A stretch of DNA of 39,253 bases from Nostoc sp. FACHB-152 (GTDB taxonomy: Bacteria; Cyanobacteriota; Cyanobacteriia; Cyanobacteriales; Nostocaceae). The first letter of the stretch is position 1. Every line of letters starts with the position of its first letter. Positions 4,705 to 14,548 of the stretch are shown piece by piece. The translations under genes were made by a program, and so were the position numbers. The DNA lies in assembly GCF_014697475.1 (NCBI RefSeq), contig NZ_JACJRV010000068.1, forward strand, positions 1-39,253, in the 5' to 3' direction. Below the pieces are notes generated by a model, which was given only the letters and a program-made list of their open reading frames with translations, searched no databases and was not told the origin of the DNA.

Positions 4705-6384
4705 TCATACTTTAGCTAGGTAGCGATGTATAAACTGTACGCACACGCTACCCTCTCCAACACCAGATGCCACTCGTTTTACTGAGGCATAGCGCACATC
4801 ACCGGCTACAAAAATACCAGGCACACTAGTTTCTAATAGAAAAGGATCTCGTTCCAATGTCCACCCTTTGGGACGACGCTTGTCTCGGATTAAATCAGCA
4901 CCCGCTAGAATAAAACCATTCTCATCGCGTTCGACGATGCCATCTAGCCAATCAGTTTGGGGACGAGCGCCAATGAAAATAAACAGTGACTTTGCTGGTA
5001 CAGTTTCAATTGCTCCTGTTTGGTCATTTATTAGTACGACAGCTTCTAAATTTTTTTCCCCCTTGACTTCCACAACTTTAGTTTGAGTGCGGACAGTAAT
5101 GTTCTGTGTGGCTGTTATCTGGTCAATCAGGTATTGCGACATACTTTTGGCAAGCGAATCAGCACGTACTAACATTGTCACCGAGTGGGCATACTTGGCG
5201 AAGTGAATCGCCGCCTGTCCAGCCGAGTTCGCACCGCCAATAACAAATACTTCTTCACCTTGACAGGCAATTGCTTCGGTCATTGCCGCACCATAATAAA
5301 CACCAGCACCACACAGATGATCCTCACCTGGAATATTCAGCTTGCGGTACGATACTCCTGTCGCAATCAACAGTGCATGACAACTGATCTCACTACCATC
5401 TGCCAGTAAAATCACCCGATAGGGGTTTTGAATCCGAACCCCGATTACTGTTTGCGGGGTCAAAATTTCGACTCCAAAGCGTTTTGCCTGCGTTACTGCC
5501 CGACGCGCTAAATCTGCACCACTTAATCCTATAGGAAAGCCCAGATAATTTTCGATGCGAGAACTTGAGCCTGCTTGTCCACCTGGTGCTTCTTTTTCAA
5601 TCATCACGGTGCTGAGTCCTTCGGATGCACCATAAACAGCCGCAGCCAGTCCAGCCGGGCCACCCCCAACAATTGCCAAATCATAAAATGGACGTTCTGC
5701 CTGAGTTCGCAATCCAATATGTTCAGCAATTTGCAGATTTGTTGGTTGTATGAGTGTAGAGCCATCTGGAAATAATACTAATGGTAAGCTTTGCACACCA
5801 TCGGGTTTAGTATAAGTCAATAGTTGATTTGCTTCTTTTTCTAACTCTACATCCATCCATTGATAAGGAATTTGATTGCGTGCCAAAAAATCTTTTACTT
5901 GGTGTGACTGTGGCGACCAACGGTTTCCTACTACCCGAATACCTTCAAACGGTGGACTATAATCTGCTAGCCAATCATCAATCAAATCATCCAGCACCGG
6001 ATACAGACGTTCTTCTGGCGGGTTCCAAGGTTTGAGCAGATAATAGTCGAGTTTAGCGTTATTAATGGCACGAATAGCCGCATCAGTATCTGCGTAAGCA
6101 GTCAGCAAAACTCGCTTGGCATTAGGAAACAGAACTATCGCCTGTTCCAAAAATTCCACCCCACTCATGAGCGGCATTCGTTGATCGACAACAAATGTGG
6201 CAACAGTTTCATTGCGAATCTTTAGTTGTTTTAAGATATCTAATGCAGTTACGCCGGAGTCGGCTCGCATAATCCGAAAGCGATCGCCATATTCTTTTCG
6301 CAAGTCTCGCGCGATCGCTTGCAGCACATCGGGATCGTCATCAACGCTGAGAATAACTGGTTTTGCCACGCGCTTGCTCTCCAA
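4705..6384 (-). CDS. response regulator / glutaredoxin-like / thioredoxin-reductase-like fusion
   Basis: A 559-residue cytosolic fusion. Residues 10-130 are a receiver with the acidic cluster D15-D17, phospho-acceptor D67 and K118. Residues about 150-225 fold like a glutaredoxin (WSPQSHQVKDFL, then LPLVLFPDG), but the redox cysteines are replaced by serines. Residues 234-559 are a pyridine-nucleotide:FAD oxidoreductase of the thioredoxin-reductase type, with GGGPAG at 240-245, VIGGANSAGQ at 381-390 and a GD motif near the C-terminus. The reductase CxxC is reduced to a lone C358 in CGAGVYYGA. The family is known as a fused response regulator/thioredoxin-disulfide reductase, yet disulfide reduction looks impossible here. 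It is divergent from the histidine kinase at 6522, its probable phospho-donor, across a 137-bp shared promoter region. Confidence 0.85.
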   Translation of the reverse strand: MESKRVAKPVILSVDDDPDVLQAIARDLRKEYGDRFRIMRADSGVTALDILKQLKIRNETVATFVVDQRMPLMSGVEFLEQAIVLFPNAKRVLLTAYADTDAAIRAINNAKLDYYLLKPWNPPEERLYPVLDDLIDDWLADYSPPFEGIRVVGNRWSPQSHQVKDFLARNQIPYQWMDVELEKEANQLLTYTKPDGVQSLPLVLFPDGSTLIQPTNLQIAEHIGLRTQAERPFYDLAIVGGGPAGLAAAVYGASEGLSTVMIEKEAPGGQAGSSSRIENYLGFPIGLSGADLARRAVTQAKRFGVEILTPQTVIGVRIQNPYRVILLADGSEISCHALLIATGVSYRKLNIPGEDHLCGAGVYYGAAMTEAIACQGEEVFVIGGANSAGQAAIHFAKYAHSVTMLVRADSLAKSMSQYLIDQITATQNITVRTQTKVVEVKGEKNLEAVVLINDQTGAIETVPAKSLFIFIGARPQTDWLDGIVERDENGFILAGADLIRDKRRPKGWTLERDPFLLETSVPGIFVAGDVRYASVKRVASGVGEGSVCVQFIHRYLAKV

Positions 6385-6521
6385 AATTTAACCAGCTGCG
6401 CTCTCAGCCTAAAGCTAGATACTAATAAAGCGATTCTATCTAAAGGCTGAGTTTCAAATGCACGACAGTCGGCTTTGATAAGGAAAAGCTTTATTATGCT
6501 ATCCCAGCAGACGAGGAAATT
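6385..6521. promoter_or_regulatory. shared divergent promoter region
   Basis: This 137-bp segment must hold the promoters of both the receiver/reductase fusion (minus) and the cNMP-domain kinase (plus). A GAGGAAATT ribosome binding site precedes the plus-strand ATG at 6522. I cannot pick specific -35 and -10 boxes with confidence. Confidence 0.5.
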
Positions 6522-7928
6522 ATGCTTTGTCTTGAAGAACTGCTGACTCTGGAATTGTTTCAAGCCTTGCCAAGAAACCGCCTCGACTGGATCTGTGAGC
6601 GCGCCAAAACGATTGACTTAAATACTGATGAGGTATTGGTAAAGGAAGGCGACCCCCCGCAGGGATTTTTTATTCTATTGTGTGGTCGTATGGGGTTAAC
6701 CCGACGAAGTGAGGGACTGGAAATACCGATTGGACAACATGAAGCTCCTAGCTTTTTTGGTGAAATTCCAGTCTTAACTGGCGAACCTGCCCCTGTGACT
6801 GCCAGAGCAATCACAGACTGTCATTTTTATGAACTATCAGCTGACGATTTCCTGACATTGCTCCATGAGTGCCGCACCTTTGAGCAGATGATTTTTCAAA
6901 GTGTGGCAAAGCGATCGCGTGGATTAGAGTCTTTCATCCGCAACCGGGAAAAAATGGCAGCTTTGGGTACCCTAGCAGCAGGACTGGCACACGAACTAAA
7001 TAATCCCGCAGCAGCATTGGTTCGCGCTTTACGAGATGTTACCCCTGCATTAGTGGAATTACAACACATGAATTTAGTCGTTGGACGACACCAAATTGAT
7101 GAAGCACATACACAAGAATGGCTCAAAGCACGTGATGAAGGGTATGAGGCAATTGTCCACAAACGGATTGATCCGATGAGTTTAAACGAACGCGAAGACC
7201 AAATGCTGAATTGGTTGGAAGATTACGGCGTGGAGGATGCCTGGAAACTGGCACAACCGCTAGCTGAAAGCGGTATTACAATTGAAACCCTCTCACAATT
7301 AACCACTCAATGGCGAGATGATTTAACTCAAATGCGTGACATAGGGCTGCGTTGGTTGGCACTCTCGTTTGAAGTAATGTCAATGACCGCCAGTGGATTG
7401 CATGGTGCAGAACGCATTGCTGAATTAGTACAGTCGATGAAGTCTTATTCTCATTTAGACCAGGGTGCGCGACAACTAGTTGATGTGCATCAAGGGCTAG
7501 AGGATACACTACGATTATTTTCCTACAAACTGAAGCATGGTGTAGAAATTCGTCGTTCCTACGCTCCAGCAATTCCTAAAATCTGGGCGTATGGCAGCGA
7601 ATTAAATCAGGTATGGACAAATTTAATTGATAATGCGATTGATGCAATGGAAGACAAAGGCGTGCTTGAAATTCTTACGAGCCACCACAGCGATCGCATT
7701 GAAGTACAAATTATAGATTCGGGTTCAGGTATCCCACCAGAAATCCAATCACGAATTTTTGAACCATTTTTTACGACAAAGCCCGTTGGCAAAGGGTCAG
7801 GTTTGGGCTTAGAAGTAGTGCGTCGAATTGTCGAAATTCGCCATCAAGGAACAATAACACTAGCATCCAAAGCAGGCAAAACTCAGTTTACTGTTTGTTT
7901 GCCAATCGTTCAGCATGGGACTCCATGA
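6522..7928 (+). CDS. cyclic-nucleotide-binding-domain sensor histidine kinase
   Basis: A 468-residue soluble kinase. Residues about 10-130 are a cNMP-binding (CRP-like) beta-barrel with the FGE turn at 79-81. The phosphate-binding arginine expected after it is not present (GEPAPVTARA), so cyclic nucleotides may not be the ligand. The dimerisation/phospho-acceptor box is AAGLAHELNNP with H157. The HATPase has the N-box NLIDNAIDAM, a DSGSGIPP G1 box, FFTTKPVGKGSGLGL and a terminal beta strand. There is no membrane segment. The GAGGAAATT ribosome binding site fixes the start. The gene is divergent from the receiver/reductase fusion at 4705-6384, a pairing that I recall from other bacteria, so the two are probably a cognate two-component pair sensing redox or metabolic state. 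Confidence 0.87.
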   Translation: MLCLEELLTLELFQALPRNRLDWICERAKTIDLNTDEVLVKEGDPPQGFFILLCGRMGLTRRSEGLEIPIGQHEAPSFFGEIPVLTGEPAPVTARAITDCHFYELSADDFLTLLHECRTFEQMIFQSVAKRSRGLESFIRNREKMAALGTLAAGLAHELNNPAAALVRALRDVTPALVELQHMNLVVGRHQIDEAHTQEWLKARDEGYEAIVHKRIDPMSLNEREDQMLNWLEDYGVEDAWKLAQPLAESGITIETLSQLTTQWRDDLTQMRDIGLRWLALSFEVMSMTASGLHGAERIAELVQSMKSYSHLDQGARQLVDVHQGLEDTLRLFSYKLKHGVEIRRSYAPAIPKIWAYGSELNQVWTNLIDNAIDAMEDKGVLEILTSHHSDRIEVQIIDSGSGIPPEIQSRIFEPFFTTKPVGKGSGLGLEVVRRIVEIRHQGTITLASKAGKTQFTVCLPIVQHGTP

Positions 7929-8029: not shown

Positions 8030-8060
8030 TTGACAAACCATATAACTATATGGTTATATA
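8030..8060 (+). promoter_or_regulatory. psbA (D1') promoter with 20-bp palindromic operator
   Basis: TTGACA at 8030-8035 is a perfect -35 box. The palindrome ATATAACTATATGGTTATAT occupies 8040-8059 (9 of 10 base pairs symmetric) and runs into the likely -10, TATATA at 8055-8060. The spacing of about 19 bp is longer than the 17-bp optimum. A regulator bound here would block or distort the promoter. The same arrangement and nearly the same palindrome occur at 12297-12328 in front of the SQR gene. Confidence 0.7.
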
Positions 8061-8112
8061 GAACATAAGGTTAACTTGCCTTGAACAACGATTAACCTCG
8101 GAATTAAACATT

Positions 8113-9198
8113 ATGACTATTTCTCTGCAACAACGCCAAAGTAGTAACAATCTTTGGGAGAAATTTTGCAATTGGATTACCAGTACTGACAACCGTATGT
8201 ACATTGGTTGGTTTGGTGTACTGATGATTCCCACACTCTTAACAGCAACCATTTGTTTCATCATCGCTTTCATTGCTGCACCACCTGTAGACATAGATGG
8301 TATTCGCGAACCTGTCGCTGGTGCTTTACTTTATGGCAATAACATCATTACTGCTGCGGTTGTGCCTAGTTCCAATGCTATTGGTCTGCACTTTTACCCC
8401 ATTTGGGAAGCGGCTAGCTTAGATGAGTGGTTATATAATGGTGGCCCTTACCAGTTGATTATTTTCCATTTCCTGATTGGTATTTTCTGCTACATGGGTC
8501 GGCAATGGGAATTATCTTACCGCTTAGGGATGCGTCCTTGGATTTCTATCGCCTACAGCGCACCTGTTGCTGCTGCCACTGCGGTACTATTAGTCTACTC
8601 TGTGGGTCAAGGTTCCTTTTCTGATGGTTTGCCTTTAGGGATTAGTGGTACTTTTAACTTCATGTTTGTACTGCAAGCCGAACACAACGTTCTCATGCAC
8701 CCATTACATATGTTGGGCGTAGCAGGTGTCTTCGGTGGTGCTTTATTCGCTGCCATGCATGGTTCTCTAGTCACTTCGTCTTTAGTTCGGGAAACCTCTG
8801 AAATTGAATCCCAAAACTACGGTTACAAATTCGGTCAAGAAGAAGAAACTTACAATATTGTTGCGGCTCACGGTTACTTCGGCAGATTGATCTTTCAATA
8901 CGCATCTTTTAACAATAGTCGTGCTTTACACTTCTTTTTAGGTGCTTGGCCAGTAATTGGTATCTGGTGCGCTGCCTTAGCTGTATCTTCTTTCGCCTTT
9001 AACCTCAATGGTTTGAACTTTAATAACTCTGTTCTTGATGCTCAAGGTCGTGTAATTAATACTTGGGCTGATGTTTTAAACCGGGCTAACTTGGGAATGG
9101 AAACAATGCACGAACGCAACGTTCACAACTTCCCCTTAGATTTAGCGGCTGGAGATATTCAACCTGTAGCTTTAGTTGCTCCTGCTATTCACGGTTAA
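8113..9198 (+). CDS. psbA: photosystem II D1 protein, D1' (low-oxygen) variant
   Basis: A 361-residue D1 reaction-centre protein of the thylakoid membrane with five transmembrane helices. It has one extra residue near the N-terminus, so standard numbering is this numbering minus one. In standard numbering Tyr161, His190, His198, Asp170, Glu189, His332, Glu333, His337, Asp342 and Ala344 are all kept. The manganese cluster ligands, TyrZ and the chlorophyll ligand are therefore intact, and a 16-residue tail remains for CtpA processing. The three substitutions that define D1' are all present: Ala80, Leu158 and Ala286. Residue 130 is Gln, as in low-light D1, and residue 162 next to TyrZ is Ser instead of Pro. 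D1' forms are reported as induced by low oxygen in Synechocystis, Anabaena and Thermosynechococcus. The gene is monocistronic and ends at a strong terminator. Confidence 0.97.
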
Positions 9199-9243
9199 TT
9201 AATTCTGAATTCAGTTCGTTCTAACTCCTCAAAAACAATGTCA

Positions 9244-9272
9244 GCAACCCAAATGGTTTGGGTTGCTTTTTT
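9244..9272 (+). terminator. rho-independent terminator of psbA
   Basis: The stem GCAACCCAAA (9244-9253) pairs perfectly with TTTGGGTTGC (9257-9266) around a TGG loop and is followed directly by six T residues. It begins 46 bp after the psbA stop codon. Confidence 0.93.
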
Positions 9273-9386
9273 ATCAAAATGGCTTTGCTGCAAGGGAAAA
9301 ATTATTGTTTGGCGATGGGCTACGCCCCACTGGAAGCGATGGCGCAACAGCCATAAAAAACTAACTTCAGCCTGGATAATATATTA

Positions 9387-9650
9387 CTATTGACGGTTTG
9401 CCATCAAACTTTTTAACTCTTCAACCTTAGCAATCGTGTAATATCCCGATGGTATTGACATGAGATACTGATCTATGGCTGATTCCAATTTAGGAAATCC
9501 TTTCTGATCTGACAGAATATCGGTTTCAGCCATTGAGTCTAATGAAGTGGAAATTTCCGATACCATCAAGTTTTTTTGAATGCTTAAAAAGAGACAGAAC
9601 AACAAAACAATTCCGAGCAGTAGAGTTTGGATTGACTTTTTAAACTTCAT
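9387..9650 (-). CDS. short secreted or anchored protein, possibly truncated rhodanese-family N-terminus
   Basis: An 87-residue frame with a basic N-terminus (MKFKK) and one hydrophobic helix at about 7-24, giving a signal peptide or membrane anchor. The rest is polar. The end, IPSGYYTIAKVEELKSLMANR, resembles from memory the linker that precedes the rhodanese domain in cyanobacterial exported rhodaneses. That domain is absent because the frame stops at once. The sequence downstream (about 9313-9355) is a small dispersed repeat, GGCTACGCCCC...GGCGCAAC. It may be a 3'-truncated gene or a genuine short protein. It converges with psbA. No clear ribosome binding site is visible. Confidence 0.5.
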   Translation of the reverse strand: MKFKKSIQTLLLGIVLLFCLFLSIQKNLMVSEISTSLDSMAETDILSDQKGFPKLESAIDQYLMSIPSGYYTIAKVEELKSLMANRQ

Positions 9651-10146
9651 AAATTTCTACTAAAATGGGTAGCACTCGCAGGTGTTTTAACTAAGGGCGA
9701 TAGTAGATTAATAAAGATTTATATCGTTATCTGATAGAACTTTCTCACGCTGCACCATTCTTCATCATTTGGCTAACAATCCATAATGCAATACAGTTCA
9801 GTTAAGCATTTATTTCTTCTCTTTGCGTCCTTGGCGGTTCGTTAAAAAAATTGACTTTGACAAAGAGTTTTAGGCTTAACTGAACCGTATTGATCCATAA
9901 TGGGTATTTCCAAAGTAGCTATGGAGAATTAATTAATCACAAAAAAAAATGTGACATTTGATTGTTTTAAATTATGCTTGAATACTATATGAATTACATG
10001 ATTTATATTATAAATACACAAGTCTTGATATTAAAATATCCCAATCATTTAAGGGTTATAATAAAAGAGAATATAAAAAAAAATTAATCCTTGAGAGTTG
10101 CTTATTGCATAATTGTACTAAGGGTTTTCTCAGAGGATGAAGTGAT
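9651..10146. other. spacer upstream of the DsbA-like gene
   Basis: About 500 bp. It contains the MITE at 9789-9892, a perfect AT palindrome ATTTATATTATAAAT at 10001-10015, and AT-rich DNA leading to the DsbA-like gene. The octamer ACTATATG near 9983-9990 equals the core of the psbA operator, but the flanks do not match. No reading frame is supported. Confidence 0.5.
9779..9902. mobile_element. MITE with 10-bp target duplication, copy 1
   Basis: The element spans 9789-9892 (104 bp). The left end CAATACAGTTCAGTTAAGC (9789-9807) is matched by GCTTAACTGAACCGTATTG (9874-9892) with one mismatch. The direct repeat ATCCATAATG lies immediately outside on both sides (9779-9788 and 9893-9902), as expected of a target-site duplication. 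The interior is non-coding. It shares its ends with the element at 19580-19703, so the two belong to one family that needs a transposase elsewhere in the genome. Confidence 0.82.
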
Positions 10147-10824
10147 ATGGAACCGATTCGTATTTTTTACTTTTCCGATGTTCTCTGCGTTTGGGCTTAT
10201 ATTGCCCAAATTCGTTTGGATGAGTTGAAAACAACCTTTCAAGACAAAATTATGCTCGCACAGCACTTTGTCCCCGTCTTTGGCGTTGCTCGTGAAAAGC
10301 TGGAAAACCGATGGCGCGATCGCGGTGGTTTGCAAGGATATAGCAATCATGTCCAAGAGGTTGCGAAAAAGTTCGATCACATTACCGTTCATCCTGATAT
10401 TTGGACTCACGTTACACCACCTTCATCGACATCCTGTCATTTGTTTCTTCATGCGATTGAATTACTAGAAGCGAAGGGTTTAGTAGAGGGAGATCAACAG
10501 ATATTTGAAAAAATAACCTGGGCATTTCGGGAGGCGTTTTTTACCCAACTGGCAGATGTTTCTGACCGCAAGGTGCAATTTGGAATTGCGGAGGAATTAA
10601 AACTACCGATCGCAGCTATCCAAGCTCAGATCGATAGTGGTGAGGCTTATGCCAAGCTATCCCAGGATTTTGAATTAGTTAAAGAACATACGGTTACAGT
10701 CAGCCCCACCCTAATTTTTAATGAAGGACGGCAGAGACTCAACGGCAATGTGGGCTATCGAGTCATTGAAGCCAATATTCGGGAGTTACTACACAATCCT
10801 CCAGGAGAGCAATCCTGGTGTTAA
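10147..10824 (+). CDS. DsbA-family (FrnE/HCCA-isomerase-like) oxidoreductase
   Basis: A 225-residue cytosolic protein with a DsbA-like thioredoxin fold and helical insertion. The first strand and active-site turn are IRIFYFSDVLCVWAY, where the usual CxxC is C14-V-W-A17, so only one cysteine remains at the active site. The cis-proline loop is TVSPTLIFN with P187, followed by the C-terminal helix. The architecture is that of FrnE and 2-hydroxychromene-2-carboxylate isomerases. A single Cys suggests a glutathione-dependent, persulfide or isomerase activity instead of disulfide formation. It is followed after 85 bp by a mini-thioredoxin and a permease, with which it may form a transcription unit. 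The ATG is preceded by GAGGATGAAGTGAT. Confidence 0.8.
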   Translation: MEPIRIFYFSDVLCVWAYIAQIRLDELKTTFQDKIMLAQHFVPVFGVAREKLENRWRDRGGLQGYSNHVQEVAKKFDHITVHPDIWTHVTPPSSTSCHLFLHAIELLEAKGLVEGDQQIFEKITWAFREAFFTQLADVSDRKVQFGIAEELKLPIAAIQAQIDSGEAYAKLSQDFELVKEHTVTVSPTLIFNEGRQRLNGNVGYRVIEANIRELLHNPPGEQSWC

Positions 10825-10909
10825 GTATGTTGAGCGATTGCCATTTAGTTGACTGGTAAAGTCGATGTTGACGGAACTAAATTAGAAAACACAAAAAGGG
10901 AGTCACGTA

Positions 10910-11152
10910 ATGAATGCTATCAAGATTGAAATTTTGGGTACAGGCTGCAAAAAATGCCAACAGTTAGAGGCAAATGCTAAAGAAGCTGTAACTAATCTCA
11001 ATTTAACTGCTGAAGTTTCACATATTACCGACCCAATCGAAATTGCTAAACGAGGTGTGATGTCTACTCCCGCTATGACAATCAATGGCAAAGTTGTCAG
11101 CAAAGGTCAAGTAATCAGTGCTGAACAAATTCAGCCCCTATTGCAGCGTTAA
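10910..11152 (+). CDS. small thioredoxin-family protein (redox-active disulfide protein 2 type)
   Basis: An 80-residue mini-thioredoxin. It begins with a strand, IKIEILGTG, and the active site C13-K-K-C16. It has the cis-proline loop STPAMTINGK (P54) and a last helix, SAEQIQPLLQR. This is the MTH895/TM0996 family, usually encoded beside permeases or ArsR regulators. The AAAGGGAG ribosome binding site at 10895-10902 fixes the start. The stop is 12 bp before the permease start, so both are certainly co-transcribed. It probably supplies reducing power or thiol chemistry for the permease substrate. The CxxC contrasts with the single-Cys DsbA-like neighbour. Confidence 0.9.
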   Translation: MNAIKIEILGTGCKKCQQLEANAKEAVTNLNLTAEVSHITDPIEIAKRGVMSTPAMTINGKVVSKGQVISAEQIQPLLQR

Positions 11153-11164
11153 AGAGGCAAATTC

Positions 11165-12163
11165 ATGTTCGATCCGTTTTATCCTTTTAATTGGTTGGCA
11201 ACCCAGATCATTACTCAAATCTTGGGCTTGTCGATTTCATCGCATTTAGGATCGAGTCTGCACTTCTTTCTTTATGATGTGCCAAAAGTCTTAACATTAC
11301 TGATTCTAATTAGCTTCATTGTTGGAACATTTCAAAGCTTTTTAGAACCAGAGCGCGTTCGTTCTTTGCTAGAAGGAAAGCGCACTTTTGCAGGAAATAT
11401 TTTGGCGGCAATAGTAGGAATCGTCACACCATTCTGTTCTTGTTCTGCGGTTCCTTTGTTTATCGGCTTTTTGGAAGCAGGTGTACCTTTAGGCGTGACC
11501 TTTTCTTATCTGATGGCAGCGCCAATGGTAAATGAGGTTGCTGTTATCCTTCTCTGGGGATTGTTTGGGTTGAAGGTGACGCTGATCTACATTGGCTTTG
11601 GCGTGGGTTTAGCGATCGCCTCTGGATATATCATCGGACTCCTGAAATTAGAAAAATGGGTGGAACCATTTGTTTGGGAACTGCAAAAATCTCGTCAAGC
11701 AAAGCCTCTAGAAGATGAAGAAACCCTAGAACCAGTGGCGTTAACCTGGGGACAAAGATTTGAGCAAGGCAGATTCCAATCCAGTGAAATTGTGCGATCG
11801 GTTTGGCTTTATGTGGTGGGTGGAATTGCGATCGGTGCAGGGATTCATGGTTATGTACCGACAGATTTTATTACCCACTATGCAGGTGCGAATAATCCTT
11901 TTGCAGTGCCGATTGCAGTAATTTTAGGTGTTCCACTCTATGCAAACATTGCGGGTGTAATGCCAATTACTGAAGCTTTGGTAAATAAAGGAATGCCTAT
12001 GGGTACAGTTTTAGCTTTCACAATGGCGGTAACAGCACTATCTCTTCCTGAAATAGTGATTCTCAAAAAAGTGCTACAACCCCAATTATTAGCCGTATTT
12101 GTCGGGTTAATGACCATTGGCATTATCAGTATTGGTTATATATTCAACGCCATAATTAATTGA
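11165..12163 (+). CDS. permease of the DUF318 / ArsP-like family
   Basis: A 332-residue inner-membrane permease with about eight hydrophobic segments and a soluble loop near residues 170-205. The family signature TPFCSCSAVPLFIGFLEAGVP carries C91 and C93, and is followed by SYLMAAPMVNEVA. A second internal repeat carries ILGVPLYANIAGVMPITEAL. Relatives include ArsP, an exporter of trivalent organoarsenicals, but many DUF318 members have no proven substrate and commonly sit with mini-thioredoxins, as here. The ribosome binding site is AGAGG, just upstream. The substrate is unknown; a thiol-reactive or metalloid compound is an inference from the CxC motif and the neighbours. Confidence 0.85.
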   Translation: MFDPFYPFNWLATQIITQILGLSISSHLGSSLHFFLYDVPKVLTLLILISFIVGTFQSFLEPERVRSLLEGKRTFAGNILAAIVGIVTPFCSCSAVPLFIGFLEAGVPLGVTFSYLMAAPMVNEVAVILLWGLFGLKVTLIYIGFGVGLAIASGYIIGLLKLEKWVEPFVWELQKSRQAKPLEDEETLEPVALTWGQRFEQGRFQSSEIVRSVWLYVVGGIAIGAGIHGYVPTDFITHYAGANNPFAVPIAVILGVPLYANIAGVMPITEALVNKGMPMGTVLAFTMAVTALSLPEIVILKKVLQPQLLAVFVGLMTIGIISIGYIFNAIIN

Positions 12164-12189
12164 CTTACCCCACTTAGTCAGGCTGATGA

Positions 12190-12275
12190 AATCAGGAGTA
12201 GCGATAGCTGCGCTCGCCGTACCCCTCCGGGGAAGCAAGCTACGCGTAGCGTCTCGTAGAGAAGGCATCGCCTGG
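12190..12275. repeat. Nostoc dispersed palindromic repeat
   Basis: A GC-rich patch in an AT-rich spacer, containing small palindromes such as CCCCTCCGGGG and GCTACGCGTAGC. Such patches are widespread in Nostoc spacers and often arise as insertions. It separates the permease from the SQR promoter, which supports a transcription break here. Confidence 0.6.
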
Positions 12276-12296
12276 TAAATTTGGAAACGTTTCAAT

Positions 12297-12328
12297 TTGT
12301 CAACAATATTACTATATAGCAATATAAT
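12297..12328 (+). promoter_or_regulatory. SQR-arsR operon promoter with 20-bp palindromic operator
   Basis: TTGTCA (12297-12302) and TATAAT (12323-12328) are close to consensus and enclose the palindrome ATATTACTATATAGCAATAT at 12306-12325 (9 of 10 pairs symmetric). The spacing is 20 bp. It lies about 110 bp before the SQR start codon. A site with 16 of 20 identical bases sits in the same position of the psbA promoter (8040-8059). The operon encodes an ArsR-type repressor, the simplest candidate for binding both. Confidence 0.75.
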
Positions 12329-12434: not shown

Positions 12435-13754
12435 ATGGCTCGCGTTATTGTCATTGGTGCTGGACTGGGAGGATTGCCTGCTGCTTATGAACTGAGGCAT
12501 ACATTGCCACGTAAACATCAAATTACACTCATTTCTAATCAACCAAAGTTTACATTTGTTCCTTCGTTGCCTTGGGTTGGATTGGGGTTAAAGTCCCTTG
12601 ATCGCATTCAATTAGATTTAGCCAAGATTCTTCCTCGGCATGGTATTGAGTTTATTCATGCTGCCGTCACCGCCATTGATCCGAAATCTCGTCAGATAAC
12701 GATGAGCAATCAAACACTGGACTACGACTATGCCGTTATTGCCACGGGGCCAGAACTGGCGCTGGATGCCCTACCGGGATTAGGGCCAGAAGGTGGTTAT
12801 ACCCAGTCAGTTTGTAATCCGCACCATGCTGTGTTGGCAGGTGTGGCGTGGGAGAAATTTTTAGACGATCCAGGCCCGGTTGTGGTGGGTGCAGCACCGG
12901 GAGCAAGTTGTTTTGGCCCCGCCTATGAATTTGCCTTGTTGATCCATCACGTTTTGAAGCAGAAGGGATTGCGAAATTGCACCGCAACGTCAAAGCGATC
13001 GCAAATACCGATTACCTTCATTACCTCCGAACCCTACGCCGGACATCTGGGCATTGGCGGTATGGCTAACTCCCGGTGGCTAATCCGCAAGTTCATGGCA
13101 GATCGAGAAATTGAGCTAATGGAAAATACTGCCATTTCCCATTTTGAACCTGACGCGGTTTATCTGGCTGATGGGCGGAGGATTCCAGCTAAGTACATAA
13201 TGGTCTTGCCGCCGTTTCGCGGGCCACGCTTCTTACGTGAAGCACCAGGGCTAACCGATGCCAAGGGGTTTATACCTGTATTGCCCACCTATCGTCACCC
13301 TGACTTTGAGTCGATTTACGCCGTAGGAGTGATCACCCAACTCAAACCAGTAGAGCAAACCCCCATCCCTACAGGCGCTCCCAAGGTGGGATTGATGTCC
13401 GAGGAAATGGCTCTGGCTGTTGCCCATAATATTGCCCTGGAATTAGGGGTGATTTCTGGATGTCAGAACAAACCAACTCTACAAGCCATTTGCTTCGCGG
13501 ATTTTGGTGATACTGGAGCGCTGTTTTTGGCCGATCCACTATTACCAGATGAGACAGGACATCGCCACCGGGCTTTAACCTATGACGGCATCTGGGTATC
13601 TTGGATGAAAGCAGGATTCGAGAAATATTTTCTGACGAAATTACGCCTGGGCTGGACGATTCCCTGGTTTGAGCGTTGGGCCTTTCGGGTGATCGGTCTG
13701 CCTCTAGTGGAACCGATTATTCCCAGCCCACAACTGATTCAGGTAAAAGGATGA
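12435..13754 (+). CDS. sqr: sulfide:quinone oxidoreductase
   Basis: A 439-residue peripheral-membrane flavoprotein that oxidises sulfide and reduces quinone. I chose the ATG at 12435 because AGGAG (12422-12426) precedes it and the FAD-binding strand ARVIVIGAGLGG starts directly after; a TTG 69 bp upstream adds only an unfolded tail. The three redox cysteines of classical SQR are present: C127 (QSVCNPHHA), C159 (GASCFGPAYEF) and C353 (ICFADFG). Their spacing is close to C128, C160 and C356 recalled for the Acidithiobacillus enzyme. The C-terminal amphipathic segment LRLGWTIPWFERWAF suits membrane attachment. The arsR gene follows after 48 bp. In cyanobacteria SQR serves sulfide detoxification or sulfide-driven electron input. 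All three cysteines argue against a type II NADH dehydrogenase. Confidence 0.9.
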   Translation: MARVIVIGAGLGGLPAAYELRHTLPRKHQITLISNQPKFTFVPSLPWVGLGLKSLDRIQLDLAKILPRHGIEFIHAAVTAIDPKSRQITMSNQTLDYDYAVIATGPELALDALPGLGPEGGYTQSVCNPHHAVLAGVAWEKFLDDPGPVVVGAAPGASCFGPAYEFALLIHHVLKQKGLRNCTATSKRSQIPITFITSEPYAGHLGIGGMANSRWLIRKFMADREIELMENTAISHFEPDAVYLADGRRIPAKYIMVLPPFRGPRFLREAPGLTDAKGFIPVLPTYRHPDFESIYAVGVITQLKPVEQTPIPTGAPKVGLMSEEMALAVAHNIALELGVISGCQNKPTLQAICFADFGDTGALFLADPLLPDETGHRHRALTYDGIWVSWMKAGFEKYFLTKLRLGWTIPWFERWAFRVIGLPLVEPIIPSPQLIQVKG

Positions 13755-13802: not shown

Positions 13803-14105
13803 ATGGAAATTGCCTTCAACCCTGGTGAACTAGAGGCACTCGCAAGCCGATTTAAGATCCTGGCAGAACCAACCCGACTGCAAATTCTAGCAGCCCTATG
13901 CAATCAGGAACGCAGTGTGCAAGAAATTTGTGGTTACACAGGATTACTTCAAGGCAATGTCTCCAAACATTTGCGATTGATGAAGGATGCTGGCGTGGTG
14001 GCGTGTCGTCGAGAAGGGGTATGGCGCTATTACCGCGTAATTGATACTGAGTTATTGGCACTTTGTTCTTATCGGCAAAAGTTACGCAACCATTTGAAGG
14101 AATGA
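13803..14105 (+). CDS. ArsR/SmtB-family transcriptional repressor
   Basis: A 100-residue winged-helix protein. The recognition region is VQEICGYTGLLQGNVSKHLRLMKDAGVV (about 39-66), followed by the wing RREGVWRYYRV. Cysteines are C33, C43, C68 and C88. The ELCVCDL metal motif of classic ArsR is reduced to EICGYTG, so arsenite sensing by that site is unlikely. A cysteine-pair persulfide sensor like SqrR or BigR is an attractive alternative, but I could not confirm that the cysteines align with theirs. It sits 48 bp behind SQR and is likely autoregulated through the palindrome at 12306-12325. A weak AAGGG ribosome binding site precedes the ATG. Confidence 0.9.
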   Translation: MEIAFNPGELEALASRFKILAEPTRLQILAALCNQERSVQEICGYTGLLQGNVSKHLRLMKDAGVVACRREGVWRYYRVIDTELLALCSYRQKLRNHLKE

Positions 14106-14152: not shown

Positions 14153-14548
14153 ATGGCAGACTTATTTTCAGCCGAATGGATGCAGGCTTTTGCTCAAGAA
14201 TGGAATGCAGAACCTGAGCTAGCCGATGCCCTTGCGAAGATTCATTTTAATTCCGCGATCGCTTATGGTTTTGTGGACAATCCAAACCCGATGGGCGTTC
14301 TGATCGTTCAAGAAGGACGAGTGGTTTCTGCCGAAAGTTATGACGGACAAAAACTTAACTGGGATTTACGCGCTGATTGCGACCACTGGCAACAGTGGAA
14401 AACCAAAGGGTTGAACATGATGGGATTGAGCATGGCATACATGAGTCGAAAATTACAATTTCGGGTAGGAGATTACACCGCCATGATTAAAGATCCTCGT
14501 ATGGCAGCTCCTTTTATCAAATCATTTGCGGTGATGAGTAGAGTTTGA
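14153..14548 (+). CDS. SCP2-like sterol-carrier-fold protein
   Basis: A 131-residue soluble protein. I start it at ATG 14153 because GGAG lies 6 bp upstream; the earlier TTG at 14141 would overlap that ribosome binding site. The pattern is an N-terminal helix (SAEWMQAFAQEWNAEPELADAL), strands (AIAYGFVD, MGVLIVQEGRVVSAES), then a DYTAMIKD turn and a C-terminal helix KDPRMAAPFIKSFAVMSRV. This fits the SCP2/lipid-carrier fold, where the DY...D turn and a final hydrophobic helix line a tunnel. It is in line with arsR and the efflux genes. A role in carrying a hydrophobic substrate to the pump, or in persulfide handling, would be speculation. Confidence 0.65.
   Translation: MADLFSAEWMQAFAQEWNAEPELADALAKIHFNSAIAYGFVDNPNPMGVLIVQEGRVVSAESYDGQKLNWDLRADCDHWQQWKTKGLNMMGLSMAYMSRKLQFRVGDYTAMIKDPRMAAPFIKSFAVMSRV

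Follow-up and report, generated by a model that had tools for sequence, protein, structure and literature searches.

Introduction

The 39,253-nucleotide contig NZ_JACJRV010000068.1 of the cyanobacterium Nostoc sp. FACHB-152 (this whole stretch is called the window below) carries a psbA gene for D1', a variant of the photosystem II D1 protein, and an operon for sulfide:quinone oxidoreductase (SQR) and an ArsR-family protein (sqr-arsR). Both promoters contain a near-identical 20-base-pair (bp) palindrome, which raises the question of whether a photosystem II subunit and sulfide oxidation are under one type of control and, if so, which protein exerts it. Judged from the promoter sequences compared here, the operator is real and common to D1' and sulfide oxidation, and it probably belongs to an ArsR-family thiol repressor. 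Our overall reading, which we regard as probable, is that the palindromes are operators of ArsR-family thiol repressors that are related to SqrR and control both D1' and sqr-arsR.

The literature describes D1' as a cryptic, microaerobic psbA; the regulator found in print is ChlR, shown in Synechocystis. Grim and Dick (2016) reported that psbA and sqr are often near each other, without a mechanism. A common operator would explain this frequent proximity and would connect the remodelling of photosystem II with sulfide oxidation, giving a handle on the switching of photosynthetic mode in sulfidic mats that is relevant to present-day mats and to the early Earth. The searches of the literature, which left most subscription journals out of reach, yielded neither an operator nor an ArsR regulator for D1', and the words sulfide and SqrR were absent, by term count, from a 2026 review of redox regulators.

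Results

Two palindromes in the window

The psbA gene (8113-9198, + strand) encodes a protein of 361 amino acids (aa) with A81, L159 and A287, which we equate with the D1' signature A80, L158 and A286 of D1. Among 85 psbA rows, 80 had G, F and T at these positions, 3 had the D1' residues A, L and A, and 2 were mixed. At the Mn-ligand positions of D1, the window D1' keeps the residues D, E, H, E, H, D and A. The gene at 12435-13754 (+ strand) encodes a 439-aa product that by sequence is a sulfide:quinone oxidoreductase, matching the Aquifex-type SQR 3hyv (E 4.5e-102) with both cysteine regions aligned. It is followed at 13803-14105 (+ strand) by a gene for the predicted ArsR-family repressor of the operon, of 100 aa with Cys33, Cys43, Cys68 and Cys88.

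The palindrome of the D1' promoter, ATATAACTATATGGTTATAT, occupies 8040-8059, and that of the sqr-arsR promoter, ATATTACTATATAGCAATAT, occupies 12306-12325; both were read from the sequence, and neither is assigned a strand. A first-pass annotation of this DNA had reported the pair, and both were found exactly at these coordinates, with 16 of 20 bases in common and 9 of 10 symmetric pairs in each, as it had counted. Its placement of the palindromes just after TTGWCA-type -35 boxes and over the -10 boxes was likewise borne out. The -35 box TTGACA of the D1' promoter (8030-8035, + strand) is separated from its palindrome by 4 bp; in the sqr promoter, TTGTCA (12297-12302, + strand) is a possible -35 box, 3 bp from the palindrome; the putative -10 box TTATAT of the D1' promoter, inferred from its position (8054-8059, + strand), lies inside the operator, and the putative -10 box TATAAT of the sqr promoter (12323-12328, + strand) overlaps it.

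From a spacing of 19-20 bp the first-pass annotation had also considered a MerR-type activator, which would act on such a long spacer, and the distance from TTGTCA to TATAAT in the sqr promoter is 20 bp. However, an alternative -35 box, TCAACA at 12300, gives the sqr promoter an ordinary 17-bp spacer, and ten aligned D1' promoters described below have spacers of 17-18 bp. Pfam searches, confined to nine proteins of the window, found no MerR-type protein. A MerR-type activator is not needed to account for these promoters, and we give it hardly any credence.

When the window was scanned with the consensus at up to 3 mismatches, only these two places were found, each on both strands, giving four matches where 0.06 were expected by chance; none of 100 shuffles had four. 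In the whole 8.6-Mb genome, the same scan gave 14 forward and 11 reverse matches compared to 8 and 6 for a backwards control. Matches at 3 mismatches are common genome-wide and this cut-off is too loose, a point that favours the alternative of chance or generic AT-rich promoter sequence. At up to 2 mismatches, five places remained in the window genome: the two in the window, C103:26966, C125:283822 and C127:56287 (here and below, C, G and L are our own numbers for contigs, genomes and loci). The C127 site begins 45 bp upstream of a second arsR gene of this genome. With a motif trained on sqr promoters, without psbA, the two window sites ranked first and second at 22.4 bits (D1') and 22.2 bits (sqr), the next site having 12.5 bits; the sqr site belonged to the training set of this motif, and the D1' site did not.

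The other two places, C103:26966-26985 (L003) and C125:283822-283841 (L004), are further strong sites of the window genome, at 15.8 and 16.5 bits. One of them precedes a 153-aa gene of unknown function, and the other lies about 420 bp before a gene taken to be carB-like.

Conservation of the site in sqr-arsR operons of relatives

An ArsR at least 58% identical to that of the window operon was found in nine other genomes among 148 of the order, and these nine loci were combined with two at about 50% identity into a set of 11. SQR adjoins ArsR in 10 of the 11 (L129-L137 and L139, not L138), and in 9 of these 10 sqr-arsR loci the palindrome stands before sqr within 3 mismatches of 16, the exception being L133. 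A de novo motif search by expectation maximization on 14 sqr upstreams, with psbA excluded and a palindromic form imposed, gave the 20-bp palindrome ATATaACTAatTAGTtATAT. In sample, 13 of the 14 sqr upstreams reached 12 bits with this motif, and L133 missed at 7.6 bits.

Conservation of the site in D1' promoters across the order

A profile of four D1' proteins was searched against 388 genomes of the order, with up to five candidates scored per genome; the best 30 loci comprised 27 D1' and 3 standard genes, so that the order holds at least 27 D1' genes. Among 388 genomes of the class, 10 matched at E 1e-233 and all belonged to the same order, no D1' gene being found outside it at that threshold. 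The sqr-trained motif reached 12 bits in 21 of the 27 D1' upstreams, the D1' of the window counted among them, versus 0 of 83 standard psbA upstreams (area under the curve 0.94); two upstreams shorter than 150 bp and exact duplicates had been removed, and the 83 standard sequences include several copies from one genome. Shuffled D1' upstreams reached 12 bits in 0.6% of cases. By genus labels, the matches cover 14 of the 16 D1' genera. The sites at sqr-arsR, at the C127-type arsR genes and at the mapped loci described below were found with a consensus written from the first sites, and therefore it is this out-of-sample comparison that carries weight. Against the 0.06 matches expected in the window, the 21 of 27 versus 0 of 83 out of sample and the clustering of sites in islands (see below), chance or generic AT-rich sequence is a negligible explanation. 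The genome and orthologue searches that the first-pass annotation had suggested thus found a site kept in orthologous sqr-arsR operons and D1' promoters, in keeping with its claim of a shared operator, and not a common motif lost from orthologues.

The D1' upstreams below 12 bits were L153 and L158 (G078 and G036), L162, L166, L165 (9.7 bits) and L154, which is at a contig edge. L153 and L158 are Synechocystis-like, and the upstream of L153 is identical to that of Synechocystis salina L105.

Of the 21 matching upstreams, 16 have a site at -72 to -76 from the aligned start, and the others have one at -80, -85, -112 and -123 (twice). In ten aligned D1' promoters, the site stands between TTGAC(A/T) and TTAAAT or TTATAT (read as TTAAAT in 8 of the 10). 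A dimer bound at such sites would be expected to block RNA polymerase.

The ChlR box and the low-oxygen cyclase gene

ChlR, a MarR-type low-oxygen activator, was the main rival considered: it binds the psbA1 promoter and controls chlAII in Synechocystis 6803 (PMC4500134), and the palindrome occurs on the same two gene classes. Of 21 loci of the low-oxygen chlA/acsF gene (chlAII; L238-L258), 13 had a site of at least 12 bits, compared to 0 of 9 other chlA loci (L259-L267), the division of chlA into these two groups being our own, by identity and neighbourhood. The ChlR box is given as TTMCC-N3/4-GGWAA in PMC13421787 and PMC5295598. An exact scan found none in the 400 bp before the D1' gene of the window (L147) and none in 25 of the 27 D1' upstreams; the two with a box were L153 and L158, both below 12 bits for the palindrome. 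In standard psbA upstreams it was found in 1 of 78. Of 30 chlA upstreams, 4 had the box: L259, L260 and L262, from the group L259-L262 in which the palindrome is absent throughout, and L252, which has the palindrome. Furthermore, the palindrome is also found at sqr-arsR operons and arsR genes. When ChlR orthologues were sought in the palindrome genomes by way of the broad MarR_2 family, the outcome was ambiguous. We consider it quite improbable that ChlR binds the palindrome; from their distribution, the ChlR box and the palindrome look like lineage alternatives.

The Synechocystis-like D1' (L158, L153) and chlAII (L259, L262) upstreams share the sequence GAAACTGTCTTGT, starting 28-30 bp after the start of the ChlR box.

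Other genes with the site and its clustering in genomes

Gene maps of 20 stretches, with families verified on proteins of L205, L206 and L209, placed the site before genes for SQR, an MBL-fold protein, the Rieske protein PetC, a YeeE-like protein and ArsR in at least one relative. The MBL-fold protein matched the sulfur dioxygenase Blh and GloB in part, reaching neither cut-off.

In eight D1' genomes, 43 sites were found at 2 mismatches versus 16 for the backwards control, and they tended to lie together. Five of the seven sites of G342 fall within 15.3 kb of a 7.1-Mb genome and serve chlAII, arsR, D1', sqr and petC, the petC site being at the end of the stretch and assigned by coordinates. 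In G149, 7 of 8 sites are on one 45.8-kb contig, and in G249, 5 of 8 are on one contig. Sites with D1' and sulfur genes numbered 3 of 3 in G309, 4 of 10 in G207 and 2 of 2 in G382, and 2 of 4 sites of the window genome (G000) are in the window. In G382, sqr and D1' stand in tandem, with a strong D1' site (22.0 bits) and a weaker sqr site (13.9 bits).

A second, distant SQR-like protein was observed at L206:11122-12471, L209:6798-8141 and L210:2343-3704 (G207, G249 and G149). The L206 protein is 23% identical to the window SQR and scored 251 bits with the type III SQR model, for which the cut-off is 525. In all three genomes the gene is convergent with a C127-type arsR gene and divergent from the MBL-fold gene, and palindromes lie between the divergent genes.

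Two ArsR types as candidate binders

Thirteen ArsR sequences were searched in the 27 D1' genomes. The type encoded in the SQR operon was recognised in 3 of the 27 (G000, G099 and G149), whereas the type encoded by the second arsR gene of the window genome, named C127 after its contig, was read in 22, its own genome included, at an identity of at least 57%. Of the remaining genomes, G053 and G029 have a relative at 45% identity that lacks the first cysteine, and their D1' genes are without a site; G099 has a 98.9-bit C127-type match, the sequence of which was not read; and the best matches in G036 and G078 are 67.5 and 64.8 bits, where the other 25 genomes all reach at least 96, and again D1' is without a site. 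The C127-type arsR gene adjoins D1' in G342 and G207, and in G103, G249 and G149 it lies at a distance of one or two genes. In the 250 bp before C127-type arsR genes, the palindrome was found at 11 of 26 loci within 3 mismatches of 16, and at 5 of 26 within 2 mismatches (L141, L140, L179, L193 and L197).

The C127 ArsR scored 82.4 bits with NF033788 (cut-off 55), which places it in the ArsR winged-helix family. Its best PDB match was 6o8k (E 2.3e-10), which we take to be SqrR of Rhodobacter capsulatus, with C29 aligned with the helix-2 cysteine. At this position, 19 of 26 C127-type rows have a cysteine, 4 have one a residue later and 3 have none (L196, L198 and L199). C87 and C91 are present in 26 of 26 rows, and the alignment to 6o8k ends before the second SqrR cysteine. 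The operon ArsR has Ala30, and not a cysteine, at the helix-2 sensor position; its nearest solved structures are 2kko and 6jmi, and its type keeps four cysteines in 12 of 12 rows.

Because it is found in 22 of the 27 D1' genomes, near D1' in five, and, in the window genome, has a site at its own promoter, the C127-type ArsR appears a better candidate for D1' than the operon ArsR, which, by the same comparison, is probably not the only, or the main, D1' regulator. Therefore, where the first-pass annotation had proposed one regulator and named the operon ArsR as its leading candidate, a common type of operator and an ArsR-family protein as the likely binder stand, and the operon ArsR as sole or main regulator of D1' probably does not.

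These counts also bear on a different explanation, in which the palindrome is the binding site of an unlinked third regulator that responds to low oxygen or redox, with the arsR genes being no more than some of its targets. The targets do include chlAII and D1' besides sulfur genes, and 15 of 26 C127-type arsR genes are without a site within 3 mismatches. However, the site stands before arsR genes or operons of both types, as expected of autoregulation; it does so too in genomes in which no D1' was detected (L129, L130, L131, L137 and L139); and in G036 and G078 its loss accompanies loss of the C127-type ArsR. On balance, we find a third regulator improbable, though less so than binding by ChlR.

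Discussion

The results suggest the following model for control by ArsR-family repressors. Without a signal, a repressor dimer would cover the promoter core, and the D1' gene and the sqr-arsR operon would be silent. A sulfur or redox signal, most likely a sulfide-derived persulfide, might then modify the repressor cysteines, resulting in release from the DNA. After release, SQR would oxidise sulfide into the quinone pool, and D1' would take the place of the standard D1. The operon ArsR and the C127 ArsR, each with a site before its own gene or operon, probably share the operator, with the C127 type as the more general D1' regulator. Polysulfide raises psbA and petC RNA in Synechococcus 7002 (PMC12466478), which fits such control and does not test it.

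Several results weigh against this interpretation. As for the sites, 15 of 26 C127-type arsR genes have none, L133 (G071) has sqr-arsR and yet little of the motif before sqr, and the D1' gene of G007 reaches only 9.7 bits despite a C127-type ArsR (66% identity, without the first cysteine). By our reading of the alignment, the D1' site lies upstream of the -35 box in L146 and L148 (those at -123), and it lies over and past the -10 box in the six loci of genus label g57 (L145, L150, L155, L161, L163 and L168). The lack of a site at those 15 C127-type arsR genes, together with the varied position of the D1' site, weakens the case for the ArsR repressors and strengthens that for a third regulator. 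As for the genomes, the sole 2-mismatch site of G103 is not at D1' (its D1' site has 16.9 bits), and the site numbers in G309 and G382 (3 and 2) are barely above the backwards control (2 and 2), only the places being different. In the window genome, chlAII has only 8.3 bits, though a palindrome variant is visible, and no site was found upstream of the closest MBL-fold gene (L298) or the Rieske gene (L300, 47% identity). Because another MBL match (L299) is internal to an open frame of 784 aa, the DNA before it does not serve as a promoter test. As for the proteins, the operon and C127 types form separate clades with 100/100 support each, and it is therefore the promoters that argue for an operator common to both. 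In the C127 type, the C-terminal cysteines are apparently placed about one helical turn ahead of that of SqrR, the alignment stopping short of the SqrR cysteine, and the operon and C127 ArsR score 43.5 and 42.1 bits with the BigR model (NCBIfam NF040642), under its cut-off of 155.

A variant of the ArsR interpretation is that an ArsR binds the site and its inducer is arsenite or another thiol-reactive metal(loid), sulfide being incidental. According to PMC4307280, SuoR, an ArsR encoded beside sqr in Synechocystis, is part of an arsenic resistance system; the four cysteines of the operon type and a gene for an ArsP_1-family permease at 11165-12163, upstream of sqr-arsR, point in the same direction. 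The wider gene set in relatives, in contrast, consists of sulfur and low-oxygen genes, and the C127 type keeps the helix-2 cysteine aligned with SqrR. We consider arsenite induction unlikely, though the strongest of the alternatives.

The palindrome system resembles several known ones in part. The persulfide-sensing repressors SqrR, BigR and YgaV (SqrR of Rhodobacter capsulatus; PMC9774250) share the ArsR fold and, in 19 of 26 C127-type rows, the helix-2 cysteine. Control of sqr and sulfur genes, read here from promoter context, and sites resembling those of autoregulation are further points of likeness. The present proteins differ in scoring below the BigR cut-off, in having a photosystem II subunit and a chlorophyll-synthesis gene among their predicted targets, and in their operator, ATATaACTAatTAGTtATAT. 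Another partial parallel is the Synechocystis 6803 system SuoR-suoS (Nagy et al. 2014, as reported in PMC4307280), with an ArsR repressor encoded beside sqr; no psbA link of SuoR was seen there. RexT, a peroxide sensor of Nostoc 7120 (PMC8960804), is likewise a cyanobacterial ArsR with a cysteine switch, but its operator is ATTCG-N15-CGAAT and its target trxA2; a RexT-type site was ruled out here by comparison of the letters, without a scan. ChlR, the MarR-type O2-sensing activator of psbA1 and chlAII (PMC4500134, PMC13421787), has the same targets, D1' and the low-oxygen cyclase, and differs in its box, which occurs in only two D1' promoters, neither with a strong palindrome.

A broader proposal is that, in most D1' cyanobacteria, D1' and the ChlAII cyclase answer not to ChlR but to SqrR-like ArsR repressors that control sulfide oxidation as well; sulfide or persulfide, and not oxygen itself, would then be the cue for rebuilding photosystem II, with ChlR and ArsR control as alternatives in different lineages. 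This is a close call that we would place just on the doubtful side.

Additional features of the window

A conserved leader, AAGGTTAAC...AACATT with GGTTAA/TTAACC arms, extends over about 46 nucleotides up to the D1' start codon (8067-8112, + strand) and is closely similar across several genera (the window, L149, L151, L152, L156, L157, L159, L160, L164 and L167). When eight leaders were folded, 0 of 10 predicted pairs were changed on both sides, and an RNA hairpin was thus not supported; the leader is perhaps a target of a protein or a small RNA instead.

Directly upstream of the D1' gene, 4705-7928 encodes a cyclic-nucleotide (cNMP)-binding histidine kinase and a fusion of a response regulator with a pyridine-nucleotide-disulfide (thioredoxin-reductase-like) domain. 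Finally, 14153-14548 encodes a 131-aa protein that matched nothing in Pfam or NCBIfam at E 0.001 and is kept near SQR in L129, L130, L132, L134, L135, L136 and L205.

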